From Siphonodentalium dalli (Eukaryota > Mollusca > Scaphopoda > Gadilida > Siphonodentaliidae), in contig CP136061.1 in NCBI GenBank assembly GCA_032622095.1, positions 7,946,734-8,010,733 on the forward strand: a stretch of DNA of 64,000 nucleotides, written 5' to 3'. This document shows positions 1,868 to 41,269 of the stretch, piece by piece; positions within the stretch are counted from its first letter, which is position 1, and every line of letters begins with the position of its first letter. A model generated the notes under the pieces. It saw only the letters and a program-made list of their open reading frames with translations, searched no databases and was not told where the DNA came from. The translations under genes were made by a program, and so were the position numbers.

Positions 1868-2070
1868 AGGATTTTTTTACCCTGTGCCAATGCATTGGCC
1901 TAACAATTTTTTATCATTTTTTTAAAATAAATGTTTCTTACAATTTTTAGGACATAAAATAAAAAACATCCATTACCCTGCAGGGAGCCCCACACATATA
2001 TAGAAGCATATAGAAGAGTGTTGTCTGCTCATGTTTGTCTGGGGCTCTGTATGGGTGAAATATGTCATAC
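1868..2070 (-). mobile_element. Palindromic (triple-hairpin) element, partial, with collapsed hairpin
   Basis: Partial copy of the element at 5001-5378, in opposite orientation. It starts with the T-run plus ACCCTGTGCC edge, then shows only the 12-bp core CCAATGCATTGG (1887-1898) where other copies have a 67-bp palindrome. It continues through the AT-rich spacer into the central hairpin (GAGCCCCA arm to TGGGGCTC arm, about 1988-2051). The loss of the inner palindrome is described in the findings. Confidence 0.7.
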
Positions 2071-2285
2071 TTATAATTTAAAACAAGTGCCAAAATATAA
2101 GGGCAAAACTCCGAGGATAAAATTGTTAAATCTATCACAAAAGGAGCTCATTTCACATACGTCGTGTTCAGTCAACAGTCGGAAATGCGAAGAGGTACTG
2201 CCGGTCCATTAAGTTGACAATGGTCCGGGCAGCCAATGAGTGAGCGGATAAGGCTAAACACATGGAACAACTCAGGTGTCTTGAC

Positions 2286-2817
2286 CAGGGAAGGATCCAG
2301 GGCTCCTTTGATACCTGTTACAGGTTTGGGCGCCCAAACTCTGGTGGCCTAAATTCCCCAAATTGCAAGTGGATAGTTTTATTAAAGCTGAATTTTCTAT
2401 ATTTTGAAGGAAATCTTCTATTATATTTCAACAACATGCAATGCAAATCATCAATATACAGTTGATATAGAGCCTTTATTTGCTTAATCAAGTGTCCAGT
2501 GAGAAATATTTTAACCCTTTCATGACTGGGGCTTCTTGAAATTTTGCAAAAATCCTGTGCCAATGCATTCTCTTATATAAATGAGAGTCTCCCATCTAAG
2601 GAGCCTCGCATATATAAGATAATACATTGGCCTTTATCTTGACCTTGTAAGCCAGTGCATTTTCTTATGCGGGATCTTTAATGCTGCACCTAAGGGAGGG
2701 GGGGGGGACCCCCTCCCGTACCTACCCCCTTCTCAAGTCTACGGCCCTCGGGATATGCCTTCGGCATATCATGGTCCCAAAACAGGTGTCCCCAAAAAAT
2801 ACCTGGATCCATCCCTG
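2286..2817. mobile_element. hAT-type non-autonomous element, 8-bp TSD
   Basis: 532 bp with terminal inverted repeats CAGGGAAGGATCCAG and, on the other strand from the right end, CAGGGATGGATCCAG. Flanking 8-bp direct repeats GTCTTGAC lie at 2278-2285 and 2818-2825. An 8-bp TSD with a CAGGG terminus is typical of the hAT superfamily. No transposase is present. A palindromic TTAACCCTTTCATGA-type element is nested inside (from about 2510) and a G-run lies near 2698. Confidence 0.85.
2510..2680 (+). mobile_element. Nested truncated TTAA MITE with 67-bp-type hairpin
   Basis: Begins with TTAACCCTTTCATGACTG, as in the complete element at 7298-7565, followed by a degenerate palindrome at 2560-2630 (CCAATGCATT arm to AATACATTGG arm) and a shortened second hairpin (about 2650-2672). 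The right terminal repeat of the complete element is missing. It sits inside the hAT element 2286-2817, so it inserted later or arrived with it. Confidence 0.6.
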
Positions 2818-3713
2818 GTCTTGACCCAATTTCGGGTTAATATATTTTGATCAGAGGGGACGCTTTAAACAAATGGACTCAGCCAAGTTTTAAGTCAGAT
2901 AGTAGCTTCAAACTGTACATTATTTCCATGGGCGTAGCCAGCGAGGGTTCGATGGGTTCGGACGAACCCGACCTGGAAAACAGAGTGCCCTCGTCGCCTG
3001 ACTAATTCAGATTCAACGTTAAGTTAATGAACCCCCGAAGTTGCCCGAGCGAACGAACCGTCGAACCCTGGGAGTCAGGCGACGAGGGCACTTTAGCATT
3101 TCGGAAAATGTATTGACAATTGTGTTTCCGTAGAATCTGATCACACGTCAAAAGACCACGACGTCGGAACTCTGACGTAGCTTCCGACAACAACAAGGCG
3201 GTATTTTTGAAGGTCGTTTTGGCCAACTGTGCCGACAACAAAACAAAAGATTAGCGAGTTGCAAGCGAGCGGCAAGAAACATGCTCGGCCGATAATAGAC
3301 TATTTCACATCAAACTTGAGGTCCGTATGATGTTTCATTGAAATTCGCACATACGCCCGGGCGAAAATTTGATTTTAACATGAATCAAATCAATAGTCCC
3401 ATGGCTGATGCCAGTGATGGCATGTCGCATGATGTGAGCATTATAATACGTCAACATTGTGTTCAGTTACAACTAAGGTGAAGATGTATGAATGTGTGTC
3501 AAATTTGTTTTCACAGTTGTTGGCAATTATGAACGGATAGACAGTTAGACACAGTGTATACATGCAAACAATATAGGGCATAAGGTCCATTCAGTGTATT
3601 TATTCGTAATTTCGTTGTGGCCAACAACTTTTTTTCGTGGCAAGCTGTGTTCCGAGACCCGAGTCCGTGTAGTCACGGTCACGATATGCATATGATAATG
3701 TTGTAGCTAATAT

Positions 3714-4235
3714 ATGCTACCATATATTATCGTTGTGATACTGGTCAACCATATACTGAGGACGATGCTTGTAGTTTCTGGACATGAAGCCCCATCCCCA
3801 CACCAAAGGGTTTTAATAAAAATCATCGAGCCATCTGTGGTGCAGTATCTGCCGGATTTGTCCAGTGCCGAATGCGTTGAAGATGAATACTTCTCGTGGC
3901 AAAAGAGGTGTAGGGAAATGGCTGTGGATCAAGCGCCCAAGTCTTGTGCCGCTGCCCTAGAGACATGTAGACCAGCCATCTACCCAAATTTATATTCTCT
4001 TCTGAAGCTTGTCTGCACAACTCCAGCTACACAATGCGAGTGTGAAAGAAGTTTCAGTGCCATGCGTAGATTATCGAACTATATGAGGGCTACAATGGGC
4101 CACCAGAGACTGTCATCATTAGCGCTGATGCACATTCATTATGATTGGCCAATAGAGTGCGCCAATGTTGTGGATATCTTCGCCCGCAAACATGCACGGC
4201 GAATGGCATTGCAGAGTTTATTCGCCGACATATGA
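3714..4235 (+). pseudogene. hAT transposase, C-terminal dimerisation-domain fragment
   Basis: A 173-residue open frame whose second half is a typical hAT dimerisation domain. It has YPNLYSLLKLVC followed by TPATQCECERSFSAMRRLSN (about residues 106-125), then ...MGHQRLSSLALMHIHYD. The CERSFS...R...N...M...RL..LALM.I pattern is diagnostic of the family. The first 40 residues look like read-through of non-coding sequence. No DDE core, BED or THAP domain is seen upstream, so the product cannot be an active transposase. It lies in the same orientation as the surrounding element and ends 620 bp before its right terminus. Confidence 0.85.
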
Positions 4236-4430
4236 TCACTAAATGATTCAACCTTGAAAAATTGTCGTTCAATTCAATATATTATACCCCACTTCAGCCA
4301 ATATGATACCGTAACAATTTCGAGTAAGATCGCACGGGGATTTAATACGTAGATTATATTTTGGGATGGTTGGGTTTGATCACTGTTCTTTATTGTTGAG
4401 TCGATACTACACGTGGGCCCATACATGAAC

Positions 4431-4502
4431 CACAGGAGTCTGGAATTTGGTCAAAAACCCACTTTTATTGGAGGGTTTTTGACCAAATTCCAGGCTCCTG
4501 TG
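4431..4502. mobile_element. 72-bp hairpin MITE with 7-bp TSD
   Basis: Two arms of about 30 bp (CACAGGAGTCTGGAATTTGG... and the complementary ...CCAAATTCCAGGCTCCTGTG) surround a loop of about 12 bp. Direct repeats CATGAAC flank it at 4424-4430 and 4503-4509. Practically the whole insertion is the hairpin. It is nested in the hAT element 2927-4855. Confidence 0.75.
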
Positions 4503-5000
4503 CATGAACAAACATTAGTACATTATATATGACAATGTACGAAGACAAACTCTATCATGCCATATATCCTCACATAATCGTTAGTTAAAATCAAAAAATC
4601 AGTTTTTTACCTCTCAATTATAGGCGCAGATATTATAAAAATATGCTCCAGATTCGCTCTCGATAGGATCAATTTTTCAAAATTTGCACGGGGGAGGCGC
4701 CCCGGGACCCCCACCAGCAGGAAGGGGTTACCCCATCCCGCACACTCCCCCATCGGCGCTTTGCGCAGCGCCGCGGTCGGCGCCTTTGCGCCGAGTCCTA
4801 TGCCCATAAAATGAAAATTCGAACCTGCCTTTTCAAAATGCTGGCTACGCCCATGATTATTTCAGCAAATGGAACAATCCCGGAGTACGGGCTCGATTAA
4901 TCCATTCACTGAAATAATGTACAGTTTTCAGCCATTATCCTATATATAAAACAGGTGTATACGTTGTTTATGTAAACAATTCAAAACTGACAAAAATAGT

Positions 5001-5378
5001 TTTTTTACCCTGTGCCAATGCATTCTCTTATATATGCGAGTCGACCATAGGTCGCCTCGCATATATAAGAAAATGCATTGGCCTAACAATTTTAATAATT
5101 TTTTCTTGTATTCTTTAACAATTTTATAATTTCACCCATGAATACAGAGCCCCAGACAAACATGAGCAGACGACACTCTTCTATATGCTTCTATATATGT
5201 GTGGGGCTCCCTGCAGGGTAATGGATGTTTTTTATTTTATGTCCTAAAAATTGTAAGAAACATTTATTTTAAAAAAATGATAAAAAATTGTTAGGCCAAT
5301 GCATTCTCTTATATATGCGAGGCGACCTATGGTCAACTCGCATATATAAGAGAATGCATTGGCACAGGGTAAAAAAAT
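5001..5378. mobile_element. Triple-hairpin palindromic element (complete)
   Basis: The fullest copy of this form. Outer edges TTTTTTACCCTGTGCC and GGCACAGGGTAAAAAA are inverted. Immediately inside lie two 67-bp near-perfect palindromes (5015-5081 and 5296-5362), each CCAATGCATT...AATGCATTGG. The two are in opposite orientation to each other, as shown by their asymmetric centres. A third, different hairpin (GAGCCCCA...TGGGGCTC, about 5152-5212) lies in the middle, between AT-rich spacers that are also inverted (TAACAATTTT / AAAATTGTTA). No ORF of note. Confidence 0.8.
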
Positions 5379-6398
5379 CCCGACTTACGACTGGATTTGA
5401 TATGGCGGGTCACATATATAAGTGAATGCACCACTGGCACATGATCGTTAATGTTGCATGGTGACAGTTTCAGTTCTTATTCGTTCCTGAAGATGCATGT
5501 GTATAATCAAGGCCACCACGTCAATGACGTCATATCATTTTGATATTTGAATAGTTATGAAATTAAATGACCATTAAAGTGATGTGAAACAGTCCGTTGT
5601 GGTGATAATATAGAAATGGAGAATAATATTGTTCAGAGTAGTTATTTTTACAAATATTATATCCAAATTGACAACGCACACCGTCATTGTTATATATTAA
5701 TAAATGCAGTGACTGCCGATGTCGAAATCATTTTTGTTAGTTTATCGCCGATAGAAGCGTCCCGATTTGAGTATAAATATTTACAATTTAGTGTAGTTCA
5801 GACAATGTTTTCTATGGAGTGGTACGGTCGATTTGCTTGAGATTTTCAGAGATGTTAGTAGAATTCTACATTCCTCAAGTTGGCTTGCCGCCTGGATACT
5901 AACTGATCAGTTTCACGTATGCTCCAAACAAGTACATAAATATTAACTCACCAGTTTCTCGCAACCAAACAAGAACAATATGTCTTTAAAGAAGTACATG
6001 TAAAACAACCACGTTGGCAGCTGACTATCAACATGACAGTATGTCCGTTGTCACTCCATGGTGGTGGATATAGAGATATGCTTTCGTGTTCCTTTGTATG
6101 GGAATATGTGTATTTCTTACAAGTATTGCAACATCGACGATTTTACCATGATTTACATATGAATAATGGTTTTAAGAATGCATGCACTCATGTCAATATA
6201 ATTGTCTATATTCAGTCCAATCGTCTGTAATGTAATTCAATAACATAGCTAATTTTCCTTGTGATTTGATATAAACAATGAAGTTGTACTATATTTTACG
6301 CTCACACATCGGTGCTCAAAAGATGGTATTGCGCGAATTTAAATACAACAAAGGTAGATCATTTTGCTTGAACAAACTGATCAAATTTGATATATTTA
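5379..6398. other. No recognised feature
   Basis: AT-rich sequence with only short ORFs lacking family motifs. I see no repeat, exon signature or element ends here. Confidence 0.5.
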
Positions 6399-6540
6399 GG
6401 GTGTTTTGTGATTTCGGAAAGGTTCAGGGCAAATATACTGTGGCAAATTTAGTTAATGGGCGACGGCATAGCCAGAGCCCATTAACAGGTATTCGCCGCA
6501 GTATATTCGCCCTGTACCTTTCCGAAATCACAAAACACCA
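6399..6540. mobile_element. Fold-back element, about 140 bp
   Basis: Long inverted arms (GGTGTTTTGTGATTTCGG...GTTAATGGGC against GCCCATTAAC...CCGAAATCACAAAACACC) enclose a loop of about 16 bp. The arms are about 60 bp with a few small differences. The whole element is a hairpin. No target duplication was resolved. Confidence 0.7.
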
Positions 6541-7297
6541 CACTGTTATCCCCATTCTAATTCTCTTCGAACTTAAAACGTTATTTCGACACACACATGC
6601 CTTGTAATTATAGATGAAATGTGCAGACATAGAATACACTCTGCCAATTCACGACTTTTTGTTTTAATTTTAATGCGCTGGATAAAATATAGTTCCTCAA
6701 TTAGCATTGCTCTTATCGTTAAAAATGCTGATCAAGATGAAAAATTGCGACCTCGAATAGAAATAAATATGCAGAACAATTAGTTTCTACATGTACCTGA
6801 TGTCTTTTTCAGATGTTTACCACTTACAAATTGCGGTTTTGATTTTACCGCGAACTTGAAGTTGAAACTTGAATTGAAACAATGGAAAATTGTTTACTGA
6901 ATGAGATGTATTTCATGTCGTATCTGTCGCGGTTTCATGTCAAGAAATTTGGACAAATGATATCGATGGGATACAGGGCGATTGTACTGACTGTCAAATT
7001 TCGACAAAAGCTACTCCGCTGGTTTGTTTATATAGCAACGGAAGTCAATACACCGGGCGCCTACTCTATACATCTACTCGAAACGTCGCCGGCATGTACT
7101 GCGTAAGGGTGACGTCATGGAGAGAAACAGAACAGTGAGCGCATCTGGATTGGGCATGGACGAGATTAGGAATTCAGCTGATGGCAATAATGGCGCGCAG
7201 GAATATCTAACATTGAAGTGGTGAACCGGACTATACATTGCGACAGGTTATCGATGAATCCGGGGGTATATTGGCTTAAGTGCATTAGAATAAACTA
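6541..7297. other. No recognised feature
   Basis: Unassigned AT-rich sequence without convincing exons or repeats. Confidence 0.4.
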
Positions 7298-7565
7298 TTA
7301 ACCCTTTCATGACTGTAGCTTCCTAAATTTTTGTGAAAACCCTGTCCCAATGCATTTTCTTACATATGCGAGTCACCATACATGTAGGTCACCTTAAATA
7401 TATAATAGAATGCATTGGCCTAACAATATTTACCTTGATCTTGTAAGCCAGTGCATTCTATTATATATACGAGGCTCTCTACGGGAGATTCACATATATT
7501 AGAGATTGCACTGGCAAAGGGTCTTTAATGCTTCACCAACGCAGCTCACATCATGAAAGGGTTAA
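7298..7565. mobile_element. TTAA MITE with two hairpins (complete)
   Basis: Ends TTAACCCTTTCATGA and TCATGAAAGGGTTAA are perfect 15-bp inverted repeats including the TTAA. TTAA duplication and a CCCTTT-type terminus fit the piggyBac superfamily. Two internal palindromes lie at 7347-7418 and 7448-7514, both diverged versions of the 67-bp family, joined by a short spacer containing CTTGATCTTGTAAG. The element carries no coding capacity. Confidence 0.8.
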
Positions 7566-7949
7566 AGGGGGACTGGCTCAAGTCATAAACTCATTTTCAT
7601 TATAATTACCATTTGCATCATTCACAACAGTGTATTTTACACTCATCATTGGCTCAATTAATTCATTTGTTGCATATATTCTGTTGAATATAACAGGAGA
7701 TGGTCCCATAAATGGCCAGATTTAGTGTACAGTCCCCATTTAATATTTAGTGAACAGGAATGTCAATAATCACTTTAAAACTGAAAGTAAAACTAGAGAT
7801 GGGCCATATTGAAAATTTCCTAAGTCATAAAAGGGGGATAACTCCACAAAATGAAAGTGTCAATGACACTGTAGCTCAACTTGGAAAGGGAATAATTTCA
7901 TGTGTTAAAGTCAATGGAGTGATTAGGAATGTGGAAAGTTGAAAGGCCT

Positions 7950-9490
7950 AGTTATGCATAGAGTAAAATCTAAGATGGCCGCCATGTTTTTTTGCCGAAT
8001 GACCCCAAAAAGACTCGTTCCCATTTACATGTCATTATTAACATCCAGTACAAATTTCATGATGATCTGACAAAAGATACGACCTGTAGCCTGTGTCAAA
8101 GGATTTAGTCATGCAAAGAGTAAAATCCAAGATGGCTGCTGGCAGCCATGTTTTTTGACCAAATGACCCCGAAATGACTAATTCCCATCTACATGTCATT
8201 GTTAACATCCGTAACAAATTTCATCTGACCAAAGATCTGACCAAAGCTACGACCTGTAGCCCGTGCCAAAGGCTGCTGGTGGCCATGTTTATTGGCCGAA
8301 CAACCCCAAAATGACTCGTTCCCATCTACATGTCAATATTAACATCCATGACAAATTTCATGATGATCAGACGAGCAGTATGACCTGTAGCCCGCGCCAA
8401 TGGATTGAATTTTGTAATCCAAAATGGCCACTGGTGGCCATGTTTTTTTTCCGAATGACCCCAAAATAACTCGTTCCCATCTACATAACAATGTCAACAT
8501 TCATGACAAATTTCATAAAGATCGGACCAAAGGTACGACCTGTAGCCCCGCGCCAAAGGATTTAGTCATACAAAGAGTAAAATCCAAGATGGCTGCTGGT
8601 GGCCATGTTTTTTGGCCGATTGACCCCAAAATGACTCGTTCCCATCTACATGTCATTGTTAACATCCATGACAAATTTCATGAAGATCAGACCAAAGCTA
8701 CGACCTGTAGACCGCGCCAAAGGATTTAGTCATGCATAGAGTAAAATCCAAGATGGCTGCTGGCGGCCATATTTTTTGGACGAATGACCCCAAAATGAAT
8801 CGTTTCCATCTACATGTCATTGTTAACATCCATGACAAATTTCATGAAGATCTGACAAAAGCTACGACCTGTAGCCCGTGCCAAAGGATTTAGTCATGCA
8901 AAGAGCAAAATCCAAGATGGCTCCTTACGGCCATGTTTTTTAGCCGAATGACCCCAAAATGACTCGTTCCCATCTACATGTCATTGTTAACATCCATGAC
9001 AAATTTCATGAAGATCTGACCAAAGCTACGACCTGTAGCCCGTGCCAAAGGATTTAGTCATGCAAAGAGCAAAATCCAAGATGGCTGCTGGCGGCCATGT
9101 TTTTTGGCCAAACGACCCCAAAATGACTCATTCCCATCTACATGTCAATATTAACATCCATGACAAATTTCATGATGATCAGACGAGCAGTATGACCTGT
9201 AGCCCGCGCCAATGGATTGAATTTTGAAATCCAAAATGGCTGCTGGCGGCCATGTTTTTTGGCCGAATGACCCCAAATCGACTCGTTGCTATCTACATGT
9301 CATTGTTAACATCCATGACAAATTTCATGAAGATCTGACCAAAGGTATGACCTGTAGCCCGCGGGAAAGGAAATTGTTGACGGACACATGCACACACGGA
9401 TGCACGCACACACAGACGCACGCACACACGCACGACGGACGCCTATCCATGGCAATAGCTCAAACTTACAAAGTAAGTTGAGCTAAAAAA
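7950..9490 (+). repeat. Second tandem array of the about 160-bp unit
   Basis: About nine units of the family at 1-1110, again with GGCTGCTGG(C/T)GGCCATG phrases and CATCCATGACAAATTTCAT. It again terminates in a CA/CG-rich stretch (9375-9440) and the inverted motif ACTTACAAAGTAAGT...AGCTAA. Open frames of 60-100 codons here share the phrase GGHVFWPNDPKMTRSHLH only because they read the repeat. Confidence 0.85.
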
Positions 9491-10090
9491 GTTGGATAGA
9501 CCTCATAATCACAGGTGCACAGGTTCCCATGGTACTAAATATCTGTGCCAAGTTTTAACAAAAATTTACCAAAAAATGTAGTAATAAAAGCTTGGACAAA
9601 GGTATACCCCTGTATTGAACATTTTCTAAGTCGAAAAAGAGCCATAACTCCACACAAAAAAGTCGGACAGACCTCATAATCACAGGTGCACAGGTTTCCA
9701 CGGTGCTAAATATCTGTGCCAAATTAAAAAAAAATGACCAAAAAATGTAGTAATAAAAGCTCGGACAATCGTATACCCCGTATTGAACATTTTCTAAGTC
9801 GAAAAAGGGAAATAACTCCACAAAAAAAGTCAGACAGACCTCATAATCACAGGTGCACAGGTTCCCTTGGTACTAAATATCTGTGCCAAGTTAAAACAAA
9901 TTGACCTAAAAATGTAGTAATAAAAGCTTGGACAAAGGTATACCCCGTATTGAACATTTTCTAAGTCGAAAAAGGGCAATAACTCCACAAAAAAAGTCAG
10001 ACAGACCTCATAATCACAGGCGCACAGGTTCCCTTGGTACTAAATATCTGTGCCAAGTTTAAAAAACAAAAATTATCAAAAAATGAAGGA
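9487..10090. repeat. Tandem array, about 168-bp unit, four copies
   Basis: The phrase GACCTCATAATCACAGG recurs at about 9500, 9668, 9836 and 10004. Units also share TAAGTCGAAAAAG and AATAACTCCACA. The sequence just before the preceding array (7790-7860: TAAGTCATAAAAGGGGG and ATAACTCCACAAAA) is related to this unit, so the two arrays are probably parts of one larger dispersed repeat. Confidence 0.8.
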
Positions 10091-10184
10091 ATAAATACTG
10101 GCACGTATGAAAGGACGAGCAGATTCCAAAATACTTTGAGATCTGACAACATGTGGTCGAGCTATATGTGAGGATGCAGGCAGG

Positions 10185-10720
10185 CCTGATAATAAGGTAC
10201 CTGTCATGTGCAGAATGAGGTCCCCAGAGGGTGATGCTTAGTTATGCTATAAACTTATTCACATACATCTATTTCTAGCGGGCTAGCATCACTAAATGCA
10301 CCCATCAGGGACCTCATTCTGCTTAGACCTCATCTTATCTGGAAATTTACTTTATTATAAAATTTCTATAGAAACTTACTCTCAGGTACCTAATAATAGT
10401 GTCAGCACGATTATTAAATTTGGAGAAAATTCCCAACGATCACTATTATTTGGCATTGAGACATAGAGTGAAATTGCCATCACTATTATTAATTTCAGCC
10501 TAAATCCCCACCCATCACTATTAATAGGCCATCACGATTATTAGGCACCTGAGAGTATTCACATAGATTCTATTTCTTTTTTGTTTTGTTTAGTTTCTCT
10601 GTACCCCCAACTTGGCAGACATCATTGCATAATCGAGGTTCCCAATGGGTGTACAATACATTACAATATTCACTACTTGGGAACTTCAATCTGAGTTTAT
10701 GTCTCCCATAGAAGATGAGG
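10185..10720. repeat. Dispersed repeat (copy 1), interrupted by a MITE
   Basis: Shares GCAGAATGAGGTCCCCAGA, GGGGACCTCATTCTGCTTAG-type phrases and TTCCCAATGGGTG with 12955-13220 and, for its start, with 14040-14090. Relative to the copy at 12955-13220 it carries an extra segment at about 10377-10568. Confidence 0.65.
10377..10555. mobile_element. MITE inside dispersed repeat
   Basis: Inverted termini ACTCTCAGGTACCTAATAAT and (reverse strand of the right end) ACTCTCAGGTGCCTAATAAT; the interior repeats CACTATTATT and CATCACTATTA. The related repeat at 13100-13125 lacks it, reading straight from GTAGAAACTT into TCTATTTC, which serves as an approximate empty site. Confidence 0.6.
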
Positions 10721-11460: not shown

Positions 11461-11533
11461 ACAAATGCGAACAACACTGATATCATTTATAACAAAAACA
11501 TTTCTGGAACTTAAATTAGGTCTTGTAAGTATG

Positions 11534-11757: not shown

Positions 11758-11996
11758 CGGGATTTTTTTACCCTGTGCCAATGCATTCTCTTATATATGC
11801 GAGTCGACCATAGGTCGCCTCGCATATATAAGAGAATGCATTGGCCTAACAATTTTTTATCATTTTTTTAAAATAAATGTTTCTTACAATTTTTAGGACA
11901 TAAAATAAAAAACATCCATTACCCTGCAGGGAGCCCCACACATATATAGAAGCATATAGAAGAGTGTCGTCTGCTCATGTTTGTCTGGGGCTCTGT
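11758..11996. mobile_element. Palindromic element, one 67-bp hairpin plus central hairpin
   Basis: Starts with the T-run plus ACCCTGTGCC edge, has an intact 67-bp palindrome at 11778-11844, an AT-rich spacer, and the GAGCCCCA/TGGGGCTC hairpin at about 11929-11995. The second 67-bp palindrome and right edge seen at 5001-5378 are missing. It is flanked by the 100-bp direct repeats. Confidence 0.75.
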
Positions 11997-12207: not shown

Positions 12208-12678
12208 TTAACCCTTTACCCAACAAACCGGCCAAAAACGCCCAAATAAAGCTTCAACAGCCTAAAATATCTTCGGTCTGTCTCAATAACACCATACAAA
12301 TATGGATATCATTGGAACCGGTTCATTGACCACATTGTGATGGTTACAGTTATGCCCTGTGCCAATGCATTCTCTTATATATGCGAGTCGACCATAGGTC
12401 GCCTCGCATATATAAGAGAATGCATTGGCCTAAAAACAATATTTTTTTAACACTGTTTAGGCCTACCATTTTTTCTTACATTCTTTAACAATTTTATAAT
12501 TTTTTCTTACATTTTTTAACAATTTTTATAATATTTTTCTACATTCTTTGACAATTTTATCATTTTTAATATGTGTTAAGCCAATGCTTTCTCTTATATA
12601 TGCGAGGCGACCTATGGTCGACTCGCATATATAAGAGAATGCATTGGCACAGGGCCGTTCTGTTGGGTAAAGGGTTAA
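12208..12678. mobile_element. TTAA MITE with two 67-bp palindromes (copy 1)
   Basis: Ends TTAACCCTTTACCCAACA and TGTTGGGTAAAGGGTTAA are perfect 18-bp inverted repeats containing the TTAA target. Palindromes at 12362-12428 and 12581-12647 face each other in opposite orientation, separated by an AT-rich stretch of repeated TTCTTACATTCTTTAAC. Left of the first palindrome lies a unique arm (ACCGGCC, CAAATATGGATATCATTGG) shared with copies at 15871, 32713 and 40372. piggyBac-like by TTAA and terminal CCCTTT. Confidence 0.85.
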
Positions 12679-15870: not shown

Positions 15871-16253
15871 TTAACCCTTTACCCAACAGAAGGGCCCTCT
15901 GCCAATGCATTCTCTTATATATGCGAGTCGACCATAGGTCGCCTCGCATATATAAGAGAATGCATTGGCTTAACACATTAAAAATTATAAAATTGTTAAA
16001 GAATGTAAGAAAAAATGATAAAAAGTGTTAAAAAAAGATTTGTTTTAGGCCAATGCATTCTCTTATATATGCGAGGCGACCTATGGGAGAATGCATTGGC
16101 ACAGGGCATAACTGTAACCATCACAATGTGGTCAATGAGCCGGTTCCAATGATATCCATATTTGTATGGTTCTATTGAGACAGACCGAAGATATTTTAGG
16201 CTGTTGAAGCTTTATTTGGCCGGTTTTGGCCGGTTTGTTGGGTAAAGGGTTAA
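15871..16253. mobile_element. TTAA MITE with two 67-bp palindromes (copy 2, reversed)
   Basis: Terminal TTAACCCTTTACCCAACA and TGTTGGGTAAAGGGTTAA, same family as 12208-12678 but opposite orientation. The first palindrome (15902-15968) is intact. The second (16050-16099) has lost most of one arm. The sequence just left (GGGCTCCTTCTGC, TTTATCTGTC, AGACCATTC) is the complement of sequence flanking the 32713 and 40372 copies, so a larger repeat was copied with the MITE. Confidence 0.85.
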
Positions 16254-16903: not shown

Positions 16904-18144
16904 CTCTAACGATGCCTCACCTGCTCAAGGATAAGTTTCTCTAACAATGCCTCACCTGCTCAAGGATAAGTTTCTCTAACAATGCCTCACCTGCTCAAGG
17001 ATAATTTTCTCTAACAATGCCTCACCTGCTCAAGGATAAGTTTCTCTAACAATGCCTCACCTGCTCAAGGATAAGTTTCTCTAACAATGCCTCACCTGCT
17101 CAAGGATAAGTTTCTCTAACAATGCCTCACCTGTTCAAGGATAAGTTTCTCTAACAATGCCTCACCTGCTCAAGGATAAGTTTCTCTAACAATGCCTCAC
17201 CTGCTCAAGGATAAGTTTCTCTAACAATGCCTCACCTGCTCAAGGATAAGTTTCTCTAACAATGCCTCACCTGCTCAAAGATAAGTTTCTCTAACAATGC
17301 CTCACCTGCTCAAGGATAAGTTTCTCTAACAATGCCTCACCTGCTCAAGGATAAGTTTCTCTAACAATGCCTCACCTGCTCAAGGATAAGTTTCTCTAAC
17401 AATGCCTCACCTGCTCAAGGATAAGTTTCTCTAACAATGCCTCACCTGCTCAAGGATAAGTTTCTCTAACAATGCCTCACCTGCTCAAGGATAAGTTTCT
17501 CTAACAATGCCTCACCTGCTCAAGGATAAGTTTCTCTAACAATGCCTCACCTGCTCAAGGATAAGTTTCTCTAACAATGCCTCACCTGCTCAAGGATAAG
17601 TTTCTCTAACAATGCCTCACCTGCTCAAGGATAAGTTTCTCTAACAATGCCTCACCTGCTCAAGGATAAGTTTCTCTAACAATGCCTCACCTGCTCAAGG
17701 ATAAGTTTCTCTAACAATGCCTCACCTGCTCAAGGATAAGTTTCTCTAACAATGCCTCACCTGCTCAAGGATAAGTTTCTCTAACAATGCCTCACCTGCT
17801 CAAGGATAAGTTTCTCTAACAATGCCTCACCTGCTCAAGGATAAGTTTCTCTAACAATGCCTCACCTGCTCAAGGATAAGTTTCTCTAACAATGCCTCAC
17901 CTGCTCAAGGATAAGTTTCTCTAACAATGCCTCACCTGCTCAAGGATAAGTTTCTCTAACAATGCCTCACCTGCTCAAGGATAAGTTTCTCTAACAATGC
18001 CTCACCTGCTCAAGGATAAGTTTCTCTAACAATGCCTCACCCGCTCAAGGATAAGTTTCTCTAACAATGCCTCACCTGCTCAAGGATAAGTTTCTCTAAC
18101 AATGCCTCACCTGCTCAAGGATAAGTTTCTCTAACAATGCCTCA
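16904..18144 (+). repeat. 35-bp satellite, 35 units
   Basis: Unit: CTCTAACAATGCCTCACCTG followed by CTCAAGGATAAGTTT. The distance between the first and the final (partial) unit is exactly 35 x 35 bp, with no indels, and I see only a handful of single-base variants (near 16910, 17003, 17133, 17279, 18042). Such homogeneity indicates recent expansion or strong conversion. There are no spacers, so it is not a CRISPR array. Confidence 0.95.
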
Positions 18145-18296: not shown

Positions 18297-18545
18297 AATC
18301 CTGTGCCAGTGTACTCTTGTATAGGGGGCCTCACATATATAAGAGAATGCACTGGCTTACAAGGTCAAGGTAAATATTGCTAGGTCAATGTGTCTCTTAT
18401 ATATGTGAGGCTCCCTACGAGATCGCATATATACAGTAATGCCCTAAATAATCGACTCCTTAACTACAGCAGAATTATGAGTAACTTTTCAGGATTTAGT
18501 TGGAAATATGGCTTGTTGCCATTCATCGGAAAGCTCTCGTGCCAA
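18297..18545. repeat. Degenerate hairpins plus inverted copy of 14270-14395
   Basis: 18306-18354 is a shrunken member of the 67-bp palindrome family, followed by the linker CTTACAAGGTCAAGGTAAAT also seen (inverted) in the elements at 2510 and 7298. A second degenerate hairpin follows at about 18383-18440. From about 18435 on, TGCCCTAAATAATCGACTCC and GGCTTGTTGCCATTCATC are the complement of 14276-14375. Confidence 0.65.
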
Positions 18546-30672: not shown

Positions 30673-30852
30673 GTAAGTGAAATATGACATCATACCATTT
30701 CCTTTGTACCAGGCGTTGGGGAATATTTAATCATTTTATTATTGATTAATTATGGAATAAATGCGACTTTTTATCTCACCTTTACGCTACAAACAGATAG
30801 CAAGAAAAACTCTCATAGCGTCACTAACCTCTCTCACGTAATCGACCCTGTG

Positions 30853-30919
30853 CCAATGCATTCTCTTATATGTGAGAGTCGACCATATATCGCCTCACAT
30901 ATATAAGAGAATGCATTGG
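30853..30919. repeat. 67-bp palindrome in intron 1
   Basis: CCAATGCATTCTCTTATAT...ATATATAAGAGAATGCATTGG with diverged centre, preceded by CCCTGTG and followed by CCTAACAATTCTTTATC as in complete elements. The second hairpin and TTAA ends are absent. It lies in the predicted first intron of the zinc-finger gene. Confidence 0.75.
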
Positions 30920-31414
30920 CCTAACAATTCTTTATCATTTTTTATAATTGTTAGAAAATGATAAAAACAATGATAAAAAATGTTAAAGAATGTAAGAAAT
31001 TATGATAACAAAATTATAAAAATTATAATATTTAGGTTTAATAACTGTTTTGTATAAATTAGCACTGTCACGTAATCGTTTTTCATTTATATCTTCACTT
31101 TCCGTGATATTATGCTCGTTATTTGAAAATATGGAGAAATACAATATGTATATGTATAGTTTATTCTATTAATGAACAAGATTGTAAAAGAAAAATTAAT
31201 TGAAAATGACTTTACCTAAAACATTTAAAATTTATTCAATTGACAGTATACTCTAAACCCAATTTGACATGTTAAAATTGACTCACAAAGAGCGTTCTTA
31301 ACTGTAATGCTAAAATATTAGTGGGGAGAAAAAGTTACATCATCATTTCGTCCATTCACAACCGGAAGAACAACTTTGGTAGAATAGTCAAAGGTTGAGT
31401 TTTGACTGTTCTAT

Positions 31415-32154: not shown

Positions 32155-35100
32155 ATGACTTCAGCTCTTGACATCTACGAACAGATAAATAGACAGAACA
32201 TGATGCATTACTATGGACAACAAAGGTATGTTTATCCCTGTCAAAAATATCTCTCGTTTGAAACAACTCTCTATTTTCCTAAAAAATGCATTTAGAGAAG
32301 TTTTTTAATTTCAATTCATTATATACCTTGTGGAAGGCAGCTGAATTAACTCATTGCATGGTCAATAATTCAAACTGATAATCAAAATGACATTGAAAAC
32401 ATAAGGAAGAATATAACTTATGTGATTACACGATTTATTAAAGAACAAAATAAGAAACAAGGAAAAAAAGAAGAACAAACTACACGTTTGTAGGGAGGGG
32501 TCTCATTTTCATCATGTATATATTGTCTATAAAATATTGTATATATGTTTTGCATGCTACTCATTAATTTGGGTCTTCGCAATAAAGCATTCACTAAATG
32601 AATTCGCCAAGTCAGTTAACCCTTTATAGAGCCCCACATAGACTGGAGCAGACGACACTCTGCAGTGCATGCTTCCATCTGGGTGAGGCTCCCTGTGGGA
32701 TAAATCTCTTAATTAACCCTTTACCCAACAAACCGGCCCAATAAAGCTGCAACAGCCTAAATTATCTTGGGTCTGTCTCAATAAAACCATACAAATATGG
32801 ATATCATTGGAACCGGCTCATTGACCACATTGTGATGGTTACAGTTATGCCCTGTGCCAATGCATTCTCGTATATATGCGAGTCGACCATAGGTCGCCTC
32901 GCATATATAAGAGAATGCATTGATTTTTTTTAACACTTTTTACCATTTTTTCTTACATTCTTTAACAATTTTATAATTTTTAATGTGTTAAGCCAATGCA
33001 TTCTCTTATATATGCGAGGCGACATATGGTCGACTCGCATATATAAGAGAATGCATTGGCACAGGGCCGTTCTGTTGGGTAAAGGGTTAAAATGTGTACT
33101 TCGGCCATCGGAATGGTCTGTTCTTGATTTGGAGTGATGACAGATAAACAAAAGCGCAGAAGGAGCCCTTGTGTATTGCGGGACCGACCTGCATATGGAC
33201 CATTACATCTAATGGCCGTGTCATCATAAATATATTAATTATAATATATTTAAACATCCACTGTACGATTTGACAACAAATATTAAAAACTTTTAAAATC
33301 CCGATTGTAACAATAAAGAACGTTTTCCATATTTACCACGATATGTCAATCACAAAGAGCGTTACTTAATCAAAATTGTATTCGTTTTCACATGTTGGTG
33401 CATGCATGCGTTATTATCGAATTAACGCTATATATAAATTCCGGGCATGGGTAGAAGAATTTTTGTTACATATATTGGAGGCTATAAATTATATGTATAA
33501 TTATATTTTATGGTGAATCATAAACATTGTATGTGTAATAATACGTATTATATGAGGTGTCATGTCGATTTTTAATGTGAATTATAATTCACCGCGTGTC
33601 TCGTCCAATCTGACTTTTCACCACAACCTGGACTCGCACAAGAAAAACACACACTGTACACAACATTGTATAATAACTTTATAATATTCATAAATCTCTG
33701 TGGTACATATACTCCGTATATAAGTATGTAGTGCAATTGTGGATATAAATTGACCTCGGGGCACGAAAGAGCAACTCCACACAACAAGTTTAAACAATCC
33801 CATATGTTAACATCATATACGATACTAAAATAGCTGTACAATTTGACTCTTTTGAACCCGACATAGAGAGATGATCAATTAGAACCATCTACGTGTACGA
33901 TTCGCTCGTCTTAAATGTCACTTGTTAACTGTCACTCATACGACATATATACAACACTAAAACGACGGTACAAATTTTGATTACAAATTCGGAAGCCTCA
34001 AAGGATAATTTTAGTTATTCAGCTTTCTTTATATAAGCGCAGTATGTAATGCCAATCATACAAAGTTACAAATATATGACCAAATTGGGCAAGTTTTGTT
34101 TCCTTTCTCTCTCTCTCTCGAAAGCAGTAGATCATTTGGTACGTTTAGGCAGAGGTAAAATAAATAACTCGGGTCCCGCGCGGGCAATCTTGTAATTATT
34201 TTGGAAACAAGTACACCTGACCTTTTACAGCTTTCAGTATTTGTAACCACAATTCAGCCATTTTCATCCAATATCTGTATCGTATCTGAATGTGTCTGCT
34301 TTTTGTTTTCAAACTCCAGTCAATAATATAATGCATGTTGATTGGAATAATTATATACCATTCAATTGTTATATGTAACCGACCAGCTAACTTAAATATG
34401 CATAATGACTAATAATTATATACCATTTAATTGTTATACATAACCGTCCATATGCATACTGAATAATAATTATCGTTATTTATTCACAGAATTTCAAATA
34501 TGCCGTATCTCAACCCATACATGCAGCAACCAATCATTCCTGCGCATGCGCAATCAACGTACGACAGCAGCAATATGCCACAACATCTACCGAAAGTACC
34601 ATCCGCCCAAGTGCCAATTCCTCGACCCACACCTGTTCGACCTGCATCATGGTACCAAACGCCTGTTCTTCCACAACATCCAGCAACAGTGTTCGTCACA
34701 ATTCGACCTCCGACATTCCAACCAGATCCATCCACGAAGGTTGTGTCAATCAAACCAAAGATTAACCCACTCACGGTGCCATCGACTCTTAGTCAAGAAG
34801 CCATCAGTCGATTCTACTCAACCGCAACCGACTGTCGACCAATCCCGCTAACAATTCGACCAGAGAATGACGTCAGTCTACAGTCATTGCCCAGCTGCGA
34901 TGCTGGAAAACAACTCGAAAACTATCACGTGACTAACACAGAGAAAGCAGACTGCATGTTTCCATTATCGACGACGTCACTTCAGCTACCTGAAGTGAAA
35001 TTCACACAAAGCATCGCCAGCAGCCTTCTCGACGAAGAGTTCGACTCAGGCAACTCGAGCCTCTCCGACATGTCGACGAACCCATCCGACTCTCCCCGAT

Positions 35101-35603
35101 CTTCGCCGGACATCTCGCTCGAAAGCATCGTACCGACTGTTCCTGATGCTGGTCTGTTTCCATTCATGTCTGCTGAGTGGGACGCGTTCCTACCAAAAGT
35201 TCAGCACCCTCCTTCGCCAAGCTACCGCTGCAAGCAGTGTGGCGCCACCTTCAAGTCGCAGACGTCAGTTAAGATCCACATGAAAGCCATCCACACCAAG
35301 CCAACACCAAGTGAGCTAACTTCGGTCAAAGCAGACGACAAGAAATACGAGTGTGACGTCTGTCGAAAACGCTTCACGTGCCGATCGTCGTTAAGGGGAC
35401 ATAATCGGATCCACATGGGTTTGAAGCCGTACCAGTGTCAGTTCTGTTGGCGCCGTTTTACAGACTACTCTACATGCACCAAACATCTCCGAACGCACAC
35501 CGGCGAACGACCGTTCAGATGTGACATCTGTGACAAGACCTTCTCTCAATCCGGGAACCTATCACGTCATAAGCTCATCCACGAGAGGTTGTCTTTTCAG
35601 TAA
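32155..35603 (+). CDS. C2H2 zinc-finger transcription factor, Glass-like fingers, two coding exons
   Basis: Coding exons 32155-32225 and 34490-35603 join AG/A in frame across GT-AG borders (donor GTATGT at 32226, acceptor TTATTCACAG at 34489) to give 394 residues. Residues 1-27 start MTSALDIYEQINRQNMMHYY. Residues 28-265 are P/S/T-rich with an acidic-serine patch around 200-238, like an activation or interaction region. Then come four C2H2 fingers: about 269-292 (C-X2-C-X12-H-X4-H), 310-332, 338-360 and 366-388. The last three use X12/X3 spacing, with a canonical TGERPF linker between fingers 3 and 4. Finger 3 (FTDYSTCTKHLRTH) and finger 4 (FSQSGNLSRH) resemble the final fingers of Glass, so a related nuclear DNA-binding factor is likely; orthology is not shown. 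Start choice: first ATG after the intron-1 acceptor. AATAAA lies at 35881. Confidence 0.85.
32616..32716. mobile_element. 97-bp hairpin insertion absent from copy B
   Basis: Copy A reads GTCAGTTAA, then a 97-bp block, then CCCTTTACCCAACA. Copy B reads directly GTCAGTTAACCCTTTACCCA (from 40367). The block has TTAA on both sides (32616-32619, 32713-32716) and consists mostly of the GAGCCCCACATAGACTGGAG...GCAGACGACACTC...GTGAGGCTCCCTGTGGG hairpin, the same type as at 13.7-13.96 kb. Confidence 0.8.
32713..33090. mobile_element. TTAA MITE with two 67-bp palindromes (copy 3), intron 2
   Basis: TTAACCCTTTACCCAACA / TGTTGGGTAAAGGGTTAA ends; palindromes at 32857-32922 (right tip truncated) and 32993-33059, in opposite orientations. 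Present in both A and B, so it predates the duplication. It lies in the intron between the two coding exons. Confidence 0.85.
33091..34489 (+). other. Remainder of intron 2
   Basis: AT-rich intron sequence ending in the acceptor at 34488-34489. Contains CACAAAGAGCGTTACTT (33352), a motif also seen at 31284, but no exon or element I can name. Its part from 33239 on is deleted in copy B. Confidence 0.5.
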
Positions 35604-35910
35604 AGATTCGTAGAGACACAGCATGATAATTTCAAATAAAAACAATACGTTACCAGGTCGTTTCATGCATGTTTCAATGATATTCATTCATATTTATGGT
35701 TTGTTCCATACAGTTTATATATTATTTTATGGCAATACCCACTTCACTGACATTGATATATATGGTAATGTCACAACACTGAATTGTGTTATTATTATGA
35801 TTTTTGTTGAATTGTACATAAGTTGTTATATTGCAATATAGTGTTATGTATAGTTAACAAATTATAGCAGAATTTGTTGAAATAAACGTTTAAGATGTTA
35901 GATATTTTGT
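35604..35910 (+). terminator. 3' UTR and poly(A) signal of the zinc-finger gene
   Basis: The stop TAA at 35601 is followed by 280 bp of AT-rich sequence and AATAAA at 35881-35886 (TTGAAATAAACGTTTAAG). The same signal exists in copy B at 41547-41552. The 72-codon frame in this stretch is not considered a gene. Confidence 0.6.
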
Positions 35911-36574
35911 TTTTATATTTCGCCAATCACATCTCTAAATATAGAGCGTTACAGAACATCAATCGTACAATGTCTGAATATAAATATTTAGTCATTAATT
36001 AGGGACAAATTATTGCTGGAGGGATCAGGTTTTGCCGGTTTCGACAAGAAACCAGTCTATTCAACAAGAGAGGAGAGATTGAGTGCGTGCAAATAAACAG
36101 GCACGAGAGAGTCGCAAAACAGCGACATATATACTCATTTTTCATTCACTGAGCAGTTATTTCAACCTTAAGACGAAAATAATCCATTAAAATGTACTTT
36201 TACTCCCATGAACTAGAAATTTAAATGTAGACAGTTGTCGAATTTCACGCGATAGACCGGCCCTTGCCTTTGTTCACCGTGCAGATAGAAAACGTAGTAA
36301 CCTGGCCATTTCTGCCAAATTACTCACTGGTGGACAATCTGCAATGAGTTACCTCTTGAGTTGTTCTTCCGCGCCGACAGAATGAATGATAATATACATT
36401 ACATACCTTTATCTTACTTATACCACTCTCCATTATTATTTCTTCCCTATTGGGGGTGGCGTAAAATTTTGTTCTGGGGACATTTGGCTCATAAAATACT
36501 GCCGTTAATATTTCTTCAATGATGTGGTACCCGAATGAGGTTAGGGTCGATACACACATGCATGTAATTTCTGT

Positions 36575-36607
36575 ATGTAAAATACATGTATTACATGTAT
36601 TTTACAT
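36575..36607. repeat. 33-bp perfect palindrome (also at 42243)
   Basis: ATGTAAAATACATGTA and its complement TACATGTATTTTACAT around a single central T. Identical in both duplication copies. Could be cruciform-forming or a binding-site pair; otherwise the stretch 35910-37011 shows nothing I recognise. Confidence 0.5.
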
Positions 36608-37020
36608 GGCCACACCAATAATTGACAACATTAATCACCTGCGCGCGAGCAGTGATAAGCGAAGTCAAACTGTCTGCTATCAGGACATTTAAGGCCAGTC
36701 CAAAACATGTCTCCTTTATGGATGCGGAAATTAGTCAAGTCTGTGTGATATCTGGCATTTTATTAATGCACGAACACCATAAACGACACGTCTGGCATGT
36801 ACAGGTTTGATATAGAACATGTTCGACCATGATGCTTGTTTGGCGTTGGGTCTCGAAAGCTTCAAATTGCTAAGGGACTTAGTTGAATGTATCGGTCGGA
36901 ATAATCTGGGCAAAGAAGGTACAATATAATATGTTTTACTCAAATAGCTCAGAGTTAGCCACCCCGCCTGGTAGCTGTCGGGATCATATATAGCCCCAAG
37001 TCGGGTATCATATATAGCCC

Positions 37021-38186
37021 TAGTCCAAGTCTTCTTGTACTAAAACCAGCTAAGATATTGGGATGGCGATGCTGGCGTTTAGTCCAAGCCCGCCCTATAT
37101 GCTCGCTTATGACACGGCTTAAGCGTTAGTGACCCGCTCAAATAAAACCACAATTATATGAAATAAAATATCACAATTGCGACAATAAACGGATATTTTC
37201 CGCAGAAGACATGCTATTTTATCTGAAACCCACATCAGTTGTGAATTTAAAACGGTAATTTAATGCGAAAAGAGACATTTACCTCAATGTTTACAATTTT
37301 TTTAAAGTATGCGAACTCGGTTGACCTCGCGAACTGTGTTCGGCATTTTCCGTTGAAAATATTCCGTAGATTTTGGACAACAACGCAAATTACGATGAAT
37401 TCTCCATTGTAATCGTAATTATGTGTGTCAATAAATAAAATAATAAATAGATTAATTAAACATTGGAGATATAAATGTAATACACTAAATAAATGAACCT
37501 TAAGTTTGAAAAGTCCCACTAAAACGGAAGAACTATATTTCGAAACTGTGTGATTCGGTTCTCCGATTATTTTATCAACACAGATGTCAAAATGCACACC
37601 ACGCGCATGGCAAGTCAGACACAAGAGATCTAATTTGCTCCAATTTTGACAAGTTGCTTGCGATAATTGTCAACAAAACTACCGTTCTGATCCTCCATTA
37701 TGTCATTAAGTTTTTAGTGCGGGAATTGTTCTGAAAGCACATAGAAAACTGGACTTTCGGGCGATCGGTTTTCGCCATTTTTGTTCGGAAAACCCGCGCT
37801 ATATATAGAAACGGAAAGTAGAATTCCCAGAACAAACAGCGGATTATGCCGAACTTATTCGGACCACTTCGGCTTTCGGTTAAAACGTAAACAAACAGAG
37901 AAACAAATCGATGTTTGTGGCAATCAACCGGAATATTCTATGTGTAATTTAACATTAAAGTTAGATTATTATACACCATTATGACCATTAGATGTAAGCC
38001 TTTCCGATGTATATAGCATCATGTATTGATTTGCTAGGTAAATCGAGTAAAATACACCACAAATTCCCGCCACAGATCGTGGGCGTAACTCATGTGGTAG
38101 GATTGGTATGCAAGCGGGCTTGGACTAAACGCCAGCATCGCCATCCCAATATCTTAGCTGGTTTTAGTACAAGAAGACTTGGACTA
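37021..38186. mobile_element. 1166-bp TIR element with 9-bp TSD, empty site in copy B
   Basis: Perfect inverted termini of about 70 bp, beginning TAGTCCAAGTCTTCTTGTAC and including CGCCAGCATCGCCATCCCAA. Exact 9-bp duplications ATATAGCCC lie at 37012-37020 and 38187-38195; copy B keeps the unoccupied target with one ATATAGCCC (42678-42686). TSD length suggests Mutator-type. The interior is AT-rich; a 125-codon minus frame (37247-37624) shows no domain, so it is non-autonomous. Confidence 0.9.
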
Positions 38187-38577
38187 ATATAGCCCCTGAG
38201 TTGGGGAAATCCTGATGCACCACTGCTATAAATATCAAGAGAGGACGGGTAATTATTTAAATAGAACGTCCACCATATGGGTTATCCCACGAACAATTAT
38301 TTTAAGTGGCCTGACGACTCGGTCTAAGATAGCGGATTCTCTACATTCCGACTTAATTTGAACTATAACTCAGTGCGGTCAACACGTCGCCAATGATTGG
38401 GTTGTCAGTGGACACACATTACATTGTCTGTATGATCCATGTAAAACGCCAAATACACGATCATTACAGAGATTACATGCATGTGTGAATCCACCCTTAG
38501 ACAAAAATTATGTCAATCTATTATTATATTTTATCTCAATGGATGAGTTTTGACCATGTAATCTAAGATTCTGGTAA

Positions 38578-39168
38578 TTAAAGGGGTACTGTACGCCATT
38601 TTCATTAAATTTCCGGTGACAACAACGATCTAATATCGATAATATATAGAAACATAAGTAATTTGAGTCGAAGATGTATTCTGTAAACGCTCAGGTTAAT
38701 AGGCTATCTTAAAATTTAATAATTTAAAAGTTATTAATTTGATATAAATTGAATTTATGACTGGAGCCATAAAATGGCGTCAATTAAATTACGAATTTGC
38801 GTAATCAAATAAAGTAAATGAGGGATACTGGCTTGTTAAACCGATCGCACACACGATCGCTTAAAATATTATGATGATACGGGGAGAACAATCAAGCCAC
38901 TCACTGACTAGCGACGATACAATAACTTAAATGATTATATGGGACTAGTATGCCTATACTATAACTTTTATTTGATTCATTTGGTTGACAACTGTACAAA
39001 AATTACTCGACAACGACAATTTGTATTTTTGCATTCCGGTAAATTTGTCATCCGTAACACTACTTCGTACTCAACAGACTTTCAAATAATGAAAAAAGTG
39101 TTACCTTATTCTCAGACTCGGAGACTATAGAAACCAACAACAACATTTGGCGTACAGTACCCCTTTAA
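38578..39168 (+). mobile_element. Large TTAA element, copy 2, empty site in copy B
   Basis: TTAA at 38578-38581 and 39165-39168 with perfect inverted termini AGGGGTACTGTACGCCA. Copy B reads TCTGGTAATTAAGTATCCCC with a single TTAA at 43069-43072. The interior resembles 58572-59222 and, at its right end, 13240-13402. Confidence 0.9.
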
Positions 39169-39910
39169 GTATCCCCAAAATAAGTCCAACCAATGAATTA
39201 ATTTCGGACTGAATAGAGGAGAGATATTTAATTAAACCAGAATTCCAACCAAATTTGTTGTGAAATTATTCAAGGGTTTCAAGGAAGACCGAGGGTAGGT
39301 TCTAAACCACTGAGTCGTTATTTGGTGGGATAATCTGGATTCAGATTACGGATTATTCCCCGTACGCCGTGGTTCGGTAATCAAACAGACCAGAATCAGT
39401 AAACGAACAGACCGTAATCGTAATCAATCGTTATTTCGTCGTAATCCGGATTCAGATTCTGATTCTGATAACGGACTCAAACGTTCATAATGTAAACAAA
39501 CCGAGATTTCGCCACCCGGAGTTTAAAAACACAATAAAACATAAGAATCCATCCCTTGTGTACAACTTATTGCAGAATATAAACGATATATATCGAAGAA
39601 TTTTAAATGCGGCTGAATTCGGAGACAAATTTGTGTTATCAAGTGTAAACGGGGAGAATATTATTGAAATTAGCCAAATAATAATGTTATTGATAGTAAC
39701 GCTGGGGGAGCACTTCAGTCACATCATCATTTCGTCCATTCACAACCGGTATTGAAGAACAACTTTTGTAGAATAGTCACAGGTTAAGTTTTGACTGTTC
39801 TATTTAAGAAAATAAATATGAAAGTACACCCTTTGACAATAATCCCCACGAACGTAAAAAAAAAACACGCACTTGATTTCTACCATGTTTTTCTCTCTCA
39901 AATTTTAGAC

Positions 39911-41269
39911 ATGACTTCAGCTCTTGACATCTACGAACAGATAAATAGACAGAACATGATGCATTACTATGGACAACAAAGGTATGTTTATCCCTGTCAA
40001 AAATATCTCTCGTTTGAAACAACTCTCTATTTTCCTAAAAATTGCCTTTAGAGAAGTTTTTTAATTTCAATTCATTATATACCTGGTGGAAGGCAGCTGA
40101 ATTAACTCATTGCATGGTCAATAATTAAAACTGATAATCAAAATGACATTGAAAACATAAGGAAGAATATAACTTATGTGATTACACGATTTATTAAAGA
40201 ACAAAATAAGGAACAAGGAAAAAAAAGAATAACAAACTACACGTTTGTAGGGAGGGTCTCATTTTCATCATGTATATATTGTATATAAAATATTGTATAT
40301 ATGTTTTGCATGTTACTCATTAATTTGGGTCTTCGCAATAAAGCATTCACTAAATGAATTCGTCAAGTCAGTTAACCCTTTACCCAACAAACCGGCCAAA
40401 AACGGCCAAATAAAGCTGCAACAGCCTAAATTATCTTCGGTCTGTCTCAATAAAACCATACAAATATGGATATCATTGGAACCGGCTCATTGACCACATT
40501 GTGATGGTTACAGTTATGCCCTGTGCCAATGCATTCTCTTATATATGCGAGTCAACCATAGGTCGCCTCGCATATATAAGAGAATGCATTGGCCTAAAAA
40601 ACTTTTTTTTTTTAACACTTTTTACCATTTTTTCTTACATTCTTTAACAATTTTATAATTTTTAATGTGTTAAGCCAATGCATTCTCTTATATATGCGAG
40701 GCGACCTATGGTCGACTCGCATATATAAGAGAATGCATTGGCACAGGGCCCTTCTGTTGGGTAAAGGGTTAAAATGTGTACTTCGGCCATCGGAATGGTC
40801 TGTTCTTGATTTGGAGTGATGACAGATAAACAAAAGCGCAGAAGGAGCCCTTGTGTATTGCGGGACCGACCTGCATATGGACCATTACATCTAATGGCCG
40901 TGTCATCATAAATATATTAAGTCGCAGACGTCAGTTAAGATCCACATGAAAGCCATCCACACCAAGCCAACACCAAGTGAGCTAACTTCGGTCAAAGCAG
41001 ACGACAAGAAATACGAGTGTGACGTCTGTCGAAAACGCTTCACGTGCCGATCGTCGTTAAGGGGACATAATCGGATCCACATGGGTTTGAAGCCGTACCA
41101 GTGTCAGTTCTGTTTGCGCCGTTTTACAGACTACTCTACATGCGCCAAACATCTCCGAACGCACACCGGCGAACGACCGTTCAGATGTGACATCTGTGAC
41201 AAGACCTTCTCTCAATCCGGGAACCTATCACGTCATAAGCTCATCCACGAGAGGTTGTCTGTTCAGTAA
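39911..41269 (+). pseudogene. Truncated copy of the zinc-finger gene
   Basis: The short coding exon survives (39911-39981, same 23 residues, same GTATGT donor). The 2016-bp deletion removed the acceptor and the first 250 or so codons of the long exon, including both cysteines of finger 1. What remains is an open frame for fingers 2-4 (40922-41269, ATG at 40946). No promoter or first exon is included. There are three base differences from copy A in the shared coding part and all change residues (W to L, T to A, F to V). Probably non-functional; a short three-finger peptide from an unknown transcript cannot be excluded. Confidence 0.8.
40372..40772. mobile_element. TTAA MITE with two 67-bp palindromes (copy 4)
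   Basis: Duplicate of the 32713 copy, with both palindromes intact (40526-40592, 40675-40741), ends TTAACCCTTTACCCAACA / TGTTGGGTAAAGGGTTAA. Flanked on the right, like the A copy, by TTCGGCCATCGGAATGGTCT and CAGAAGGAGCCCTTGTG. Confidence 0.85.

Follow-up and report, generated by a model that had tools for sequence, protein, structure and literature searches.

Palindromes and elements of the window

A 64-kb stretch of contig CP136061.1 of the scaphopod mollusc Siphonodentalium dalli (positions 7,946,734 to 8,010,733; hereafter the window, in whose coordinates palindromes are given) was analyzed for a near-perfect 67-bp palindrome, of which an earlier sequence-only reading had listed 16 sites. 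The palindromes are modules within the ends of short non-coding, mostly TTAA-bounded miniature inverted-repeat transposable elements (MITEs) with piggyBac-like CCC...GGG tips. The elements and pieces that carry them were as follows, types A to D being described in the next section.

1879-2060, + strand: part of a type A element, hairpin only CCAATGCATTGG (1887-1898); right boundary approximate; 24-mer junction shared with other copies (177 genome-wide)
2511-2720, + strand: decayed type C TTAA MITE, palindrome 2560-2630 and remnant of a second; right end approximate
5000-5378, + strand: type A element, oppositely oriented palindromes 5015-5081 and 5296-5362; 94-nt arms, 98% complementary
7298-7565, + strand: old type C TTAA MITE, palindromes 7347-7418 and 7448-7514
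11759-11991, + strand: half type A element, single palindrome 11778-11844, lying between direct repeats (about 106 bp) of host DNA
12208-12678, + strand: type B TTAA MITE, palindromes 12362-12428 and 12581-12647
15871-16253, - strand: type B TTAA MITE, palindromes 15902-15968 and 16050-16099 (shortened, 50 bp)
18298-18457, + strand: decayed type C remnant, palindrome at about 18306-18355 with another remnant beside it; both ends approximate
30845-31067, + strand: single-palindrome piece (30853-30919) with AT-rich tail, between 11-bp repeats TCACGTAATCG that reach no better than E 0.03
32713-33090, + strand: type B TTAA MITE, palindromes 32857-32923 and 32993-33059
40372-40772, + strand: type B TTAA MITE, palindromes 40526-40592 and 40675-40741; its flanks match those of the element at 32713, a local duplication

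The arm sequence CCAATGCATTCTCTTATATA had 30 matches in the window at no more than 3 mismatches, compared with 0.03 expected from shuffles. Such matches stopped at 40,741 and no palindrome was found beyond 40,758 by profile search, which bore out the confinement to 1.9-40.8 kb that had been reported; the reported start at 1868 runs into the copy whose hairpin is reduced to CCAATGCATTGG. Both arms were recognisable in 14 of the 16 listed palindromes, while the remaining two were partly lost, that at 16050 by an internal deletion (50 bp vs 67) and that at 18306 with its right arm alone recognisable (18336-18355). The 67-mer folded into a 26-bp stem, one mismatch, a further 5 bp and a 3-nt loop, with a free energy as DNA of -33.2/-35.6 kcal/mol, and none of 200 shuffles was equally stable.

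The two centres of a pair had been said always to point in opposite directions. This was found in the five clear pairs of the window (5015/5296, 12362/12581, 15902/16050, 32857/32993 and 40526/40675), but not in one-direction arrays of the sampled stretch L010 or at 32 exact in-place flips genome-wide. The centres are opposed within a pair because the module is present in both inverted ends of the element, and this paired layout is ordinary transposon architecture. The description as a palindrome of palindromes suited type A best, with its 94-nt, 98% complementary arms, whereas type B repeats only its tips and palindromes.

Element types and the shared module

The module is about 79 bp long and consists of an outer CCCTGTG, the 67-bp hairpin and an inner CCTAA or CTTAA. 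Types B, C and D start with TTAACCCTTT and end with AAAGGGTTAA or near variants, which gives the CCC...GGG tips. Type B was described from eight aligned copies as TTAACCCTTTACCCAACA...TGTTGGGTAAAGGGTTAA, and in its reference copy the palindromes lie 154 bp (left) and 31 bp (right) from their ends. Type C (TTAACCCTTTCATGACTG...) shows greater age and divergence, type D (TTAACCCTTTGAGTGCCAGG...) has a module at just one of its ends, and type A is marked by long inverted ends. In the type C elements at L010:2597-4823 (L010 = C1:540001-550000), the palindrome and its spacer form 97-bp units in head-to-tail arrays of one orientation, which lie inside a duplicated stretch of about 1.5 kb.

A profile search, which made no use of flanks, gave 53 distinct palindromes, of which 38 had a TTAA tip within 170 bp, compared with 423 of 5,070 background positions (8.3%), and 10 of the 15 without a nearby tip were internal units of the L010 arrays. 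TTAA was scored at both ends of 10 of 13 palindrome-bearing elements, and at both ends of the other three when the sequence was read, a count that gives no independent rate because the elements were chosen by their TTAA tip. TTAA at both ends, as in piggyBac MITEs, was found in types B, C and D and not in the type A copies read.

The genome searched comprised 2,226,750,531 bp in nine contigs. The exact arm 20-mer had 157,048 and 157,062 occurrences on the two strands, its reversed-order control had none (0), and the exact centre 35-mer occurred 113,695 times. The 79-bp form of the module that has CCCTGTG outside and CCTAA inside was present in 45,138 identical copies, some of them within segmental repeats, a number that supports the recent spread suggested earlier. 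The palindrome was present in 8 of 18 arbitrarily placed 10-kb stretches (L011-L028); of two further C1 stretches, L009 was without it and L010, placed on known matches, had many. These data describe a real, very abundant MITE architecture. At C1:820040-926292, palindromes were also carried along by a tandem segmental repeat of about 11 kb.

The consensus palindromes of A, B-left, B-right and D were identical at 67 of 67 positions, and matched the type C ends at 60 or 63 of 67. In the same hand-made, ungapped comparison, the 22 bases further out matched at only 3-10 positions and the 30 further in at 9-20, the highest inner value coming from types A and D, whose inner side is AT-rich. In copies not chosen by flank, end-proximal modules had CCCTGTG or a close variant outside; the exceptions were one copy that is truncated (L026:2215), one that is fused (L022), remnants, and units internal to arrays. 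The 49 modules measured below were themselves anchored on CCCTGTG and hence cannot test the constancy of this motif. In addition, a near-perfect 214-bp foldback MITE at L026:4502-4715 had a D-like tip and no module. The module and flank identities, together with this module-free MITE, showed that tips, module and interior are combined in different ways. One hairpin common to several seemingly unrelated element families is the unusual and interesting part, and no account of such a module was found among the literature matches listed.

Arm divergence and hairpin scars

Selected pairing and frequent arm-to-arm conversion, both put forward by the sequence-only reading, were unsupported at the level of copies. 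Five arm pairs (positions 22-26 with 42-46) were scored with the other 25 places of the 35-mer exact, copies and not events being counted, so that copies may share one event. The change lay on one side only in 12,386 of 12,996 altered copies (6,021 left, 6,365 right) and on both sides in 610, where independence predicts 337; this excess is insufficient evidence of coupling, because age differences among copies are enough to increase the two-sided number. Among 34 copies from sampled loci, one-sided change was seen in 30 pairs and two-sided change in 1 (to A/A). Eight old copies of type C showed 58 one-sided and 6 two-sided pairs, 5 of the latter being complementary, in a set in which at least one copy was aligned reversed and which includes the subfamily difference between the two type C palindromes, itself a pair of this kind. 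By the genome-wide counts, conversion or compensation between arms accounted for a small minority at most.

The statement that arms stay matched while spacers drift was weakly true of young type B elements, whose eight copies had minority letters at 7/722 arm, 31/1456 outer-flank, 15/545 inner-flank and 7/207 centre positions, a modest difference that stems from few events and includes subfamily structure. It was not true of type C, where arms and flanks had diverged alike (eight copies; arms 83/704, outer flanks 88/656, inner flanks 24/188, centres 28/187). Subfamilies were separated by paired changes, with the centre CTCCC/GGGAG vs CGACC/GGTCG and the pair A4-T64 vs G4-C64, which indicated that palindromy was kept along amplifying lineages. 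Repair of the hairpin mismatch was also considered and rejected: repairing changes at T27/C41 numbered 731 compared with 265 other transversions (2.76-fold), but the same mutation types at the neighbouring paired C42/T43 amounted to 585, at least 10 of these being one tandem locus (C1:820-921 kb), so that the excess was 1.25-fold only.

The hairpin carried scars of its own. Among the 49 anchored modules of the sampled loci, 40 were measurable, with 31 at 67 bp, 8 shorter (12-50 bp) and one at 72 bp; two of the short ones repeat the deletions of a local duplicate, and the set includes L057 and L058, which were chosen for flips, and the duplicated stretches of L010. The 24-mer junction at which the whole hairpin is lost between AATGCATT repeats occurred 177 times genome-wide, and the first 100 places listed were scattered over C1-C5 with a few local clusters; these copies could in principle include an ancestral hairpin-free form. 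An exactly inverted centre was found 32 times, compared with the 45,138 canonical 79-mers, and the two flipped loci that were read were ordinary type A and B elements with the other palindrome in the usual orientation. Scars of this kind would be expected if hairpins or cruciforms formed, or if templates were switched.

Other features of the window were two long near-perfect minisatellites, at 16904-18144 (35-bp unit, 35.5 copies) and 55890-57513 (25-bp unit, 65.1 copies), a fragment of an open frame at 3711-4235, which we take to resemble the dimerisation part at the C-terminus of hAT-type transposases, and a 377-codon open frame at 34470-35603, with what we take to be C2H2 zinc fingers at its end and probably a host gene exon.

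Proposed mobilization and comparison with known systems

A piggyBac-type transposase is the likeliest mover, given the TTAA boundaries, the CCC tips and the asymmetric placing of the subterminal palindromes. With moderate confidence, we propose that such an enzyme moved the MITEs in trans and that the palindrome is a subterminal recognition and assembly site, like the palindromes of piggyBac ends. A transposase with TTAA target and CCC...GGG tips would mobilise the elements, and the palindrome would be the site at which it binds and assembles, as for the dimer of the piggyBac cysteine-rich domain (CRD). Families with different tips and interiors would retain the module and its orientation because they use, or descend from users of, the same machinery. 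After insertion the copies would decay with their arms coupled little or not at all, and the hairpin would cause its own scars, namely loss between the basal AATGCATT repeats, deletion of parts of the hairpin and, rarely, an inverted centre. The left and right ends (LE and RE) of piggyBac contain the same 19-bp palindrome at unequal distances from the tips, two CRDs bind the copy in the left end, and the left end of piggyBat has three imperfect palindromes (PMC11707139).

Genes for piggyBac transposases were abundant in this genome, with 128 matches to PF13843 (DDE_Tnp_1_7), many without stops. From 649 candidate loci 116 were scored, and 28 of these were partly scanned, 8 over the domain and about 1.5 kb on each side (about 4 kb; 4 of one family) and 20 over 1.6 kb of the 3' side. 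Several observations weigh against the proposal. No palindrome and no AAAGGGTTAA tip was found at the 28 partly scanned loci, and since none has these ends the recognition-site role is one that we infer; the nearest match was one arm-like 20-mer with 4 mismatches in L051, taken as chance, and six of the 20 3' flanks have AAAGGTTAA, one G short. No empty insertion site was found in 359,065 bases of sampled sequence. Three type A copies (5000, L026 and L057), read at both ends or nearly so, had no TTAA ends. Near-perfect pairing over 67 bp far exceeds the need of a dimeric binding site. Finally, the one-ended module of type D and the similarly tipped L026:4502-4715 without any indicate that not every TTAA element requires the module.

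Two further candidates were rejected. The 4.2-kb element with type C ends at L019:4449-8666 was tried as the autonomous partner and had no open frame longer than 137 codons. For type A, a TA target was weighed on the basis of the sequence and dropped, since types B and C do not fit it.

It is possible, although we consider it doubtful, that the palindrome is passive structure, a relic of one founder MITE that was amplified along with it and has no function in transposition. The nearly independent drift of the arms within copies, the equal divergence of arms and flanks in old copies and the existence of an element with similar tip but no module all agree with such a relic. It accounts less well for an identical module in one orientation between poorly matching flanks at four family ends, and for the subfamily-level paired changes that preserve the palindrome.

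An unlikely alternative is that the palindrome, alone or as palindrome-tail-palindrome, is a transferable cassette that was inserted into or recombined between MITE families, possibly through hairpin template switching. An island of identity with poor match on both sides, and a similar tip that occurs with and without the module, would be expected of a cassette. Direct repeats were found around single-palindrome pieces at three of five places tested (about 106, 47 and 11 bp, the last with E 0.03 only), while the pieces at 1868 and 18300 had none beyond 9 bp. Against it stand the orientation, which among the copies read did not vary with respect to the host element, the non-uniform boundaries (A, D and the piece at 30845 start at ACCCTGTG, B does not), and the failure to establish any independent target preference. 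Equally speculative is the related notion of a mobility tag, a 79-bp cis module that moves or recombines between unrelated MITE families in fixed orientation and gives its carriers access to one trans-acting transposase; if true, tens of thousands of elements of different origin would form one mobility group.

Single-palindrome pieces of 219-233 bp were observed at 11759-11991 and 30845-31067 of the window and at L026:2212-2430, between direct repeats of host DNA of about 106, 11 and 47 bp respectively; the first repeat consists of an 84-bp part at 98.8% and a 31-bp part at 96.8% identity. Repeats of such unequal length are unlike TTAA transposition, and templated repair or template switching is possible.

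A role of the hairpins as RNA, as a source of small RNA or double-stranded RNA, is very unlikely: the hairpins are very stable and one B element gave weak matches to miRNA-precursor families, but each was well below the gathering score, no Rfam match in the 64-kb window reached that score, and arm changes are little coupled. Least probable is that gene conversion between arms or selection on pairing keeps the arms matched, since the two-sided excess, the complementary type C changes and the fewer substitutions in arms than in flanks of young B copies are set against 95% one-sided copies, an excess of only about 273 of 12,996 in a two-sided count that a mixture of young and old copies alone would raise, and the small surplus of repairing transversions over neighbouring paired sites.

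With more than 45,000 identical 79-bp palindromes, this single genome is a natural experiment of unusual size that allows direct counts of how often hairpins are deleted, centres inverted and arms drift, and it raises a question open to test, namely why one hairpin is common to several MITE families amid poorly matching flanks. For the proposed piggyBac-type mobilization, the closest comparison is piggyBac itself, of which CCC...GGG tips are typical. The elements resemble piggyBac and piggyBat ends in their TTAA boundaries and asymmetric subterminal palindromes (PMC11707139). They differ from piggyBac in the size of the palindrome, 67 bp with a 26-bp perfect stem instead of 19 bp, and from both in that the palindrome is common to several MITE families and that no autonomous partner was found in the partly scanned loci. 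Kolobok elements share the TTAA target site, but their tips are 5'-RR...YY-3' (PMC9587614), and membership is excluded by the 5'-CCC tips found here (CC...GG). Foldback elements and other MITEs are likewise short, non-coding, built of inverted repeats and high in copy number, yet differ in that a nested hairpin module is kept here across families with poorly matching flanks. The termini of IS200/IS605 and of parvoviruses have hairpins near the element ends with an asymmetric centre, as the present elements do. Parvovirus-like flip/flop replicators contain both centre orientations at similar frequency, and a replicator of this kind was rejected for the present elements, whose centre orientation is nearly fixed (32 flipped vs 45,138 canonical) and whose ends are TTAA.

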